DNA from: Cyanobacteria bacterium M_DeepCast_100m_m1_067
GTDB taxonomy: Bacteria; Cyanobacteriota; Cyanobacteriia; PCC-6307; Cyanobiaceae
NCBI GenBank assembly: GCA_016882385.1
Contig: VGQC01000003.1
Coordinates: 1-43,874 of the forward strand
Direction of reading: 5' to 3'
DNA length: 43,874 bases
Shown here: positions 9,001-10,351 of the stretch, piece after piece
Numbering within the stretch: position 1 is the first letter of the stretch
Layout of the letters: each line of letters opens with the position of its first letter
Notes under the pieces: generated by a model
Database searches by the model: none
Seen by the model: the letters and a program-made list of their open reading frames with translations, nothing else
Told to the model about the DNA's origin: nothing
Program-made: the position numbers and the translations under genes

Positions 9001-9026
9001 GGTTGATGCCAATGGTTGCTGCCAAT
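9001..9026 (+). repeat. Two 13-bp tandem repeats
   Basis: GGTTGATGCCAAT / GGTTGCTGCCAAT (12/13 identical). Confidence 0.7.
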
Positions 9027-9071
9027 CCGGCTTGCTGGTCCGCGACGTTCTGGCCGTTGATGCAGATCAAT

Positions 9072-9097
9072 CATTCAGATCGAGCATTCAGAGCGTT
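9072..9097 (+). repeat. Two imperfect 13-bp tandem repeats
   Basis: CATTCAGATCGAG / CATTCAGAGCGTT, directly before the ATG at 9099. Confidence 0.6.
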
Positions 9098-9098
9098 C

Positions 9099-9740
9099 AT
9101 GCTGGCTGCGGGTGTTGCTGTTGCGCTCCGGCATGGCGTTCGGCGGATTCGGTTGATCAGGCGATCCATCCCCTTTGCGCTCCTGACGGCCCTGGGGGGC
9201 GCTCTCGCTGCTCCGGGGTCTGCCCTGCAGCGCCCGGTTGATCCGGTGGCGGTCTGTGTTGTGTCCCCCCGGGTGGAAGCGGTGGAGGAAGGGGATGCCG
9301 CGGGTGTGGTGCCCACGCCGAGCCCCCAGCTGGTGGTGGTTGAACCGCTCCTGGAGCTGCGCATTGAGCGCCGGGGCCGGCTCGTGTGGCGGCGGCTGGC
9401 GTCGGCGGGGCAGGGTCTCCCGGTGCCCTTGGCCTGGCCTTTGGATCCGATCACCCCTGGCGAAGTGGTGCTGTTGCGGCTGCGTCCCGAGCAGGCTCCG
9501 GAGGGGGCCTTTGCCCATGTGCACTTGGTGGGTGCCTCCCCCGAACGGATGGCGAGCACCGCCGCCCTGATCCGCTCCCTCGCTCAGAACCCCCTGGCCT
9601 GGTTGGCGGCCATCGAAGCGGCCCTGGAAGCTGAGGATGTGCCGTTGGCTTGGACCTTGTTGTTTGCGCCGCAGCTGCCCGATGCCGCCGATCTCACGGC
9701 CCTGCGGGCTGAGGTGGTGCGGCGGGGCTGCGGCGACTGA
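9099..9740 (+). CDS. Hypothetical secreted protein (ORF open from 9003)
   Basis: MLAAGVAVALRHGVRR...ALLTALGGALAAPGSA signal-like segment then SPQLVVVEPLLELRIERRGRLVWRRL... Confidence 0.65.
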   Translation: MLAAGVAVALRHGVRRIRLIRRSIPFALLTALGGALAAPGSALQRPVDPVAVCVVSPRVEAVEEGDAAGVVPTPSPQLVVVEPLLELRIERRGRLVWRRLASAGQGLPVPLAWPLDPITPGEVVLLRLRPEQAPEGAFAHVHLVGASPERMASTAALIRSLAQNPLAWLAAIEAALEAEDVPLAWTLLFAPQLPDAADLTALRAEVVRRGCGD

Positions 9741-9782
9741 CGCACGGGCTTGGTCGCACGGCTTTAGCCGCACAGCCCTGGT
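9741..9782 (+). repeat. Three imperfect 14-bp tandem repeats
   Basis: CGCACGGGCTTGGT / CGCACGGCTTTAGC / CGCACAGCCCTGGT between the stop at 9740 and the UmuD-like gene. Confidence 0.6.
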
Positions 9783-9826
9783 TCAAATGTACTATCGTGT
9801 CTGTTGTGTTGCGGAGGGCGGCGGTG

Positions 9827-10351
9827 ATGGCCTGTTCCCCCACCAGCGATTTGATTTGGTTGGGTCCTTTGCGGCAGGAGGAGGAGCCCCTGCACCTACC
9901 CCTGGCGGTGGAGTCGGTGGCGGCGGGGTTTCCGAGTCCTGCCGACGACTATGTCGAGGCGGCTATCGACCTCAACGGCATTTTGATGCCGCGCCCGAGC
10001 TCCACCTTTTTGATGCGGGTGGATGGTGAGGCGATGCGCGGCGACGGCATCCATCACGGGGATCTGCTGGTGGTTGATCGCAGCGTGGCGCCGCGCTCAG
10101 GTTCCACCGTGGTGGCGGTGCATGAGGGGCGCTTTGTGCTGCGGCGGCTTGAGGGGCGTCCCGCCCAGTGGTGCCTGGTGGCGAGTGATGCAACGACCGC
10201 CGCGATTGCCTTGCAAGGTGAAGACCCAGATCTGCTGATTTGGGGTGTGGTGATTCATGCGGTGCATCACCTCTGCAAGCCGCTGTCGGGATCGCGACGG
10301 CGAGGTGCCGTCGCTGGAGGCTCACCAGAAGCCCTGGGAGTGGAGCCATAG
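9827..10351 (+). CDS. UmuD/S24-family protein lacking catalytic Ser and Lys
   Basis: AAGFPSPADDYVEAAIDLN...PSSTFLMRVDGEAMRGDGIHHGDLLVVDRS...RFVLRRLEG...WGVVIHAV; GGAGGG ribosome-binding site before ATG 9827. Confidence 0.88.
   Translation: MACSPTSDLIWLGPLRQEEEPLHLPLAVESVAAGFPSPADDYVEAAIDLNGILMPRPSSTFLMRVDGEAMRGDGIHHGDLLVVDRSVAPRSGSTVVAVHEGRFVLRRLEGRPAQWCLVASDATTAAIALQGEDPDLLIWGVVIHAVHHLCKPLSGSRRRGAVAGGSPEALGVEP

Follow-up and report, generated by a model that had tools for sequence, protein, structure and literature searches.

The window, a 43,874-nucleotide stretch of DNA from a member of the Cyanobiaceae, encodes a UmuD homologue that retains the N-terminal arm and cleavage site of the self-cleaving UmuDs and has lost both catalytic residues, while a second, umuC-linked UmuD of the same genome retains the catalytic residues and has lost both the arm and the site. 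We consider it probable that the two genes represent a natural division of UmuD into an enzyme and a substrate, in which the short UmuD would cut the catalytically dead orphan in trans, and the orphan would then act as an arm donor to the polymerase.

The dead gene is an ORF on the forward strand (9827..10351) that encodes a protein of 174 residues. Its original recognition as a UmuD-like protein with an intact cleavage context is borne out by the translation, by the NCBIfam UmuD model NF007621 (118.4 bits; cut-off 110), by the Pfam Peptidase_S24 model (71.4 bits; cut-off 23.3) and by structure, with E. coli UmuD and UmuD' as the nearest solved structures. An AlphaFold2 model of the protein has a core with pLDDT values of 90-96 and an arm of low confidence, and its top Foldseek matches are the UmuD' structures 1ay9 and 1umu (TM 0.86-0.89 by target length). 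The LexA equivalog scores 51.7 bits, below its cut-off of 110.95, and the protein consists of the S24 domain only, with no LexA N-terminal DNA-binding domain. Likewise, the HumD model scores 78.7 bits, below its cut-off of 120, and the protein does not have the short architecture of that group. Instead, it possesses an N-terminal arm of residues 1-33 (9827..9925, +), which aligns with residues 1-24 of E. coli UmuD plus an extension and is predicted to be removed. The predicted scissile bond joins Ala33 and Gly34 (9923..9928, +), a small residue-Gly pair that is Ala/Gly in 46 of 46 dead copies with a short partner and in 31 of 31 canonical UmuDs. The cleavage context reads VAA/GFPSPADDY, the slash marking the bond, which lies in VAAGFPSPADDY; its GFPSPADDY segment (9926..9952, +), the predicted N-terminal arm after cleavage, is near-invariant in 34 aligned dead copies. 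A Shine-Dalgarno-like GGAGGG (9813..9818, +) stands 8 nt before the ATG at 9827, and this spacing, together with the position of the GTG at 9797 at the promoter, favours the ATG as the start. A 245-residue ORF lacking a Pfam match (9003-9740, +) is located directly upstream. No Y-family polymerase gene adjoins the dead gene, so that it is not encoded directly before umuC; as had been noted originally, the next ORF is convergent, and the convergent ORFs downstream have no Pfam match.

In the alignment to E. coli UmuD, Ala69 (GCG, 10031..10033, +) falls on the catalytic Ser60 and Arg106 (CGG, 10142..10144, +) on the catalytic Lys97, precisely the two replacements on which the original prediction had been built. 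Between them, Val104 (10136..10138, +) replaces Thr95, a position occupied by Leu, Val or Ile in all dead copies. Ala and Arg occupy positions 60 and 97 in 54 of 54 dead copies, and the alignment offers no substitute Ser/Lys pair in the active site of any of them. An S24 protein without its nucleophile does not cleave itself by the known S24 mechanism, and with its nucleophile lost the orphan should be unable to do so. As judged from these residues, the gene is a UmuD-derived pseudoprotease that falls outside the self-cleaving UmuD class, because the dyad is absent; its product probably retains a role within Pol V.

The draft assembly (G000) to which the window belongs, as contig C3, spans 1.7 Mb and is 83.7% complete. 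The catalytically intact UmuD and the UmuC that were to be sought elsewhere in the genome both lie on contig C1, where the only Y-family polymerase gene of the assembly, umuC, has a second UmuD (P0002) directly before it; S24 matches in the draft genome are confined to these two loci. The dyad of P0002 is intact, in GESM and TLKR motifs, and its core is folded with confidence by AlphaFold2. The protein starts past the cleavage site, and the arm, the Ala-Gly pair and GFPSPADDY are all missing, which gives it the short HumD/UmuD'-like architecture with no pre-cleavage arm and an intact dyad. In the genus of the window the start codon of the short gene is not ATG and is TTG or CTG, an assignment of which we are unsure. 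In their anatomy the orphan and the short UmuD are mirror images, each without what the other has. The simple notion that the short copy is a constitutive UmuD' was rejected, as it is without the GFPSPADDY arm that E. coli UmuD' needs.

The two genes also appear to share regulation. Using a position weight matrix built from published cyanobacterial LexA boxes (PMC3091678), we identified a putative LexA/SOS box ahead of the window gene (9780..9793, -; AGTACATTTGAACC on the reverse strand, GGTTCAAATGTACT on the forward strand), which overlaps a possible -10 element, TACTAT (9790..9795, +). It scores 17.3 bits, a value reached by 0 of 200 shuffles. In the entire 1.7-Mb assembly there are exactly two copies of the box core, GTACATTTGAACY, one ahead of the orphan (9780-9792) and the other ahead of the short umuD and its umuC. 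On this predicted box and its shared core the window gene would belong among the LexA-controlled genes, and across genomes the matrix places a LexA box upstream of the dead, short and canonical genes with few exceptions.

Both genes could be read in 45 genomes from six genera of the family and aligned to E. coli UmuD. The partnered dead copies uniformly combine A/GFPS with Ala, an aliphatic residue (Leu, Val or Ile) and Arg at positions 60, 95 and 97 (46/46), Thr95 being found in none of the 46. Each of the 46 short copies retains Ser60 and is without the cleavage site, and in the 45 that are long enough to read, Lys97 is present in every one and Thr95 in 44. A further 31 genomes have a single kind of UmuD, adjoining umuC, with site and dyad in one protein. 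The classes are otherwise unmixed in the genomes read, the exception being eight genomes with the dead copy alone. The designation of the dead gene as an orphan holds at the window locus but not in six genomes of the genus g71, where it shares a strand with the short umuD-umuC pair and precedes it by 0.5-1.7 kb. Named records with the dead gene include Synechococcus sp. 8F6, Cyanobium sp. T1B-Tous, Cyanobium sp. FACHB-13342 and Synechococcus sp. CS-1331. A search of plasmids with the window protein returned only UmuDs, all below 60% identity, and a class-wide search for the presence of UmuD showed that numerous UmuDs occur outside the family. Four genomes additionally carry second copies or fragments of umuD-umuC on other contigs (L186/L187 in G376, L194 in G107, L195 in G241 and L193 in G342).

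A tree of the core domain, from which the arm and catalytic columns were left out and which rests on only 101 columns, unites the short copies in one clade (support 98/92) and the dead copies in another (100/99), the latter including a third, siteless family of dead UmuDs. This topology is consistent with a single duplication after which each copy lost a complementary part. Both the dead and the short genes evolve under purifying selection; in pairwise comparisons the dN/dS of the dead-gene core is 0.07-0.59, mostly 0.1-0.3, and that of its arm and site 0.06-0.75, with all defined pairs below 1 in both cases. A single clean origin of the split was sought on the UmuC tree and not found, as split and single-copy genomes interleave there with 4-8 changes. 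From this interleaving, the history must include later loss, reversion or transfer and exchange.

The third family (L071-L078, L189, L190, L232, L235 and a viral contig, L254:1088-1516) has Gly or, in some cases, Arg at Ser60, Arg at Lys97 and no GFPSP site, and carries an SOS box about 15-20 nt before the start. It is probably mobile, since its members are near-identical across genera, occur in several copies in some genomes and are 95% identical on an IMG/VR contig; they might act as dominant-negative forms of UmuD'. In several genomes and on the viral contig, a 72-residue protein with no Pfam match (MAPDLKHPATGDLIVLADGEQLWRIGW...) is encoded directly upstream of this gene (L075:1868-2083, L189:1599-1814, L254:695-1045).

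The eight genomes with a dead copy and umuC (G097, G147, G327, G338, G343, G380, G392 and G395) have no umuD before umuC and no other short UmuD detectable at an E-value of 1e-9. That they retain the dead copy alone shows that it can be worth keeping without the short UmuD. At P1, the residue before the scissile bond, these unpartnered copies have Thr (2), Ser (3) or Ala (3), so that Ala is found in 46 of 46 copies with a partner versus 3 of 8 without one (Fisher 1.8e-5, a value that ignores relatedness); on the tree the eight form three lineages, in two of which P1 has changed. This pattern suggests that the P1 residue is held in place by the partner protease. LexA-like matches remain in most of the lineages without the short UmuD. 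At the corresponding loci (L246-L253) umuC has no umuD in front and, in several cases, its own visible SOS box, and from their gene content these genomes are predicted to run a Pol V that lacks an intact UmuD protease altogether.

In the scheme that we favour, an ancestral self-cleaving UmuD would have been duplicated and its copies would have lost complementary parts, the window copy keeping the arm and Ala-Gly site at the expense of the Ser-Lys dyad, and the umuC-linked copy the reverse. Upon DNA damage, LexA would release both genes, and we infer that the two proteins would pair and that on RecA filaments the short UmuD would cut the orphan in trans between Ala33 and Gly34. The cut orphan would supply its GFPSPADDY arm to UmuC, and the short subunit, retaining its Ser/Thr/Lys pocket, would bind the UmuC C-terminus; the product would be an asymmetric Pol V composed of UmuC, the short UmuD and the processed orphan. 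Parts of this scheme have a precedent in studies on E. coli. With RecA present, heterodimers of an engineered armless UmuD, Delta1-17, and UmuD S60A show efficient trans cleavage of the S60A subunit (PMC5342242). The computational model of Pol V is itself asymmetric, with the UmuC C-terminus on one UmuD' and the arm of the other near the UmuC active site (PMC11791011; PMC12926913), and the UmuC C-terminus contacts S36, T71 and K73 of UmuD' (PMC11791011), which by our own renumbering are S60, T95 and K97 of UmuD. By analogy with this model, the natural pair appears to divide exactly along its lines. Against the scheme, the short copy might conserve S60, T95 and K97 for the binding of UmuC and not for proteolysis, and eight genomes have a dead copy and no detectable short UmuD; three of these keep Ala at P1, and the change at P1 amounts to two lineages only. 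The mingling of split genomes with single-copy ones on the UmuC tree also counts against it. To the stronger version, in which the enzyme and substrate genes are obligate, each Pol V contains two different UmuDs and some relatives have moved on to a Pol V with only the dead UmuD, we give about an even chance.

Among the options of the original prediction, a substrate cut in trans by its dimer partner is the one we favour. An uncleaved decoy is harder to reconcile with the scissile Ala-Gly and the residues that follow it, which show little or no variation wherever the protease partner is present. The decoy idea would make the uncut orphan an inhibitor that pairs with the active short UmuD and either blocks Pol V activity or hands the short protein over to ClpXP. 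Precedent exists in the preference of E. coli for UmuD/UmuD' heterodimers, in which the uncut arm brings the partner to ClpXP (PMC5342242), and without such a brake an active UmuD lacking the arm might be on permanently. Such a role leaves the invariant site and GFPSPADDY unexplained, however; moreover, armless UmuD' dimerises but is by itself defective in supporting E. coli mutagenesis (cited in PMC11791011), and orphans persist where the short UmuD has been lost, all of which makes inhibition unlikely. We regard as similarly improbable a purely structural specialisation, whereby the two UmuD' positions became two genes, a tail binder and an arm donor, with S60 and K97 kept in the short copy for binding the UmuC tail and trans cleavage incidental. 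The contacts of S60, T95 and K97 with the UmuC C-terminal carboxylate are indeed made by one UmuD' only (PMC11791011), short copies retain all three positions whereas dead copies have lost all three, and umuC is retained in genomes without the short copy. Yet the UmuC C-terminus does not mark the state of a genome, being alike in all three states including that with the Ala/Arg copy alone, P1 Ala is invariant only in canonical proteins or beside a partner, and a full pre-cleavage arm under selection is not something that arm donation requires.

Cleavage of the orphan by another S24 protease, such as LexA, in place of the short UmuD would account for the eight orphan-only genomes, and most relatives do have S24 proteins of the LexA type. 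Of the three lineages that lack the short UmuD, however, two have Ser or Thr at P1 even as LexA-like matches remain in most, and neither co-distribution nor interaction supports this reading, so we hold it to be very improbable. The loss of both catalytic residues might by itself hint at a decaying duplicate or a sequencing error, the latter having been anticipated as an objection from the outset. The identical two replacements in 53 genomes exclude such an error, and this conservation, together with the dN/dS values and conserved SOS boxes, leaves decay with practically no credibility.

With one gene supplying both UmuD' subunits, it has so far been difficult to tell cis from trans cutting by UmuD or to assign a role to each subunit. 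In these freshwater picocyanobacteria the two roles apparently reside on two genes in many species, so that each could be deleted or mutated alone. If the proposal is true, it would provide a clear example of an autoprotease divided between two genes after duplication, each copy having lost what the other kept, and activation of the error-prone Pol V would need both proteins together. A survey recorded a duplicated umuD in Cyanobium gracile PCC 6307 and nothing further (PMC5101192), and we found no published description of such a UmuD split in the open-access literature.

Several known systems resemble parts of this arrangement. With E. coli UmuD, the self-cleaving S24 manager subunit of Pol V, the window protein shares the fold, the arm, the Ala/Cys-Gly site, the GFPSPA.DY motif and SOS control; it differs in the replacement of Ser60, Thr95 and Lys97, in its location away from umuC and in having a separate dyad-bearing paralogue. 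HumD of phage P1 is a naturally short, UmuD'-like protein with an intact dyad, whose sequence starts past the cleavage point. The umuC-linked partner shares both features, but, unlike these forms, it also lacks the GFPSPADDY that UmuD' keeps and is accompanied by a dead full-length paralogue. The duplicated archaeal PolB2 accessory protein PPB2 presents a comparable asymmetry, in that the N-terminal motif inserted into the polymerase survives in one copy only (PMC11791011), although it belongs to an unrelated family and involves no protease. In UmuDAb of Acinetobacter, a UmuD has likewise been turned to a new role (PMC4807011), in that case as a repressor that cleaves itself and carries an N-terminal domain of its own, neither feature being shared by the window protein. 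The engineered combination of UmuD Delta1-17 and UmuD S60A (PMC5342242) similarly joins an active site without a usable arm to an arm without the Ser, with cutting in trans in heterodimers; those are laboratory constructs, whereas here the two halves are natural genes known from their sequences, in which Lys97 has also been lost and the arm has been lost to beyond the cleavage site.
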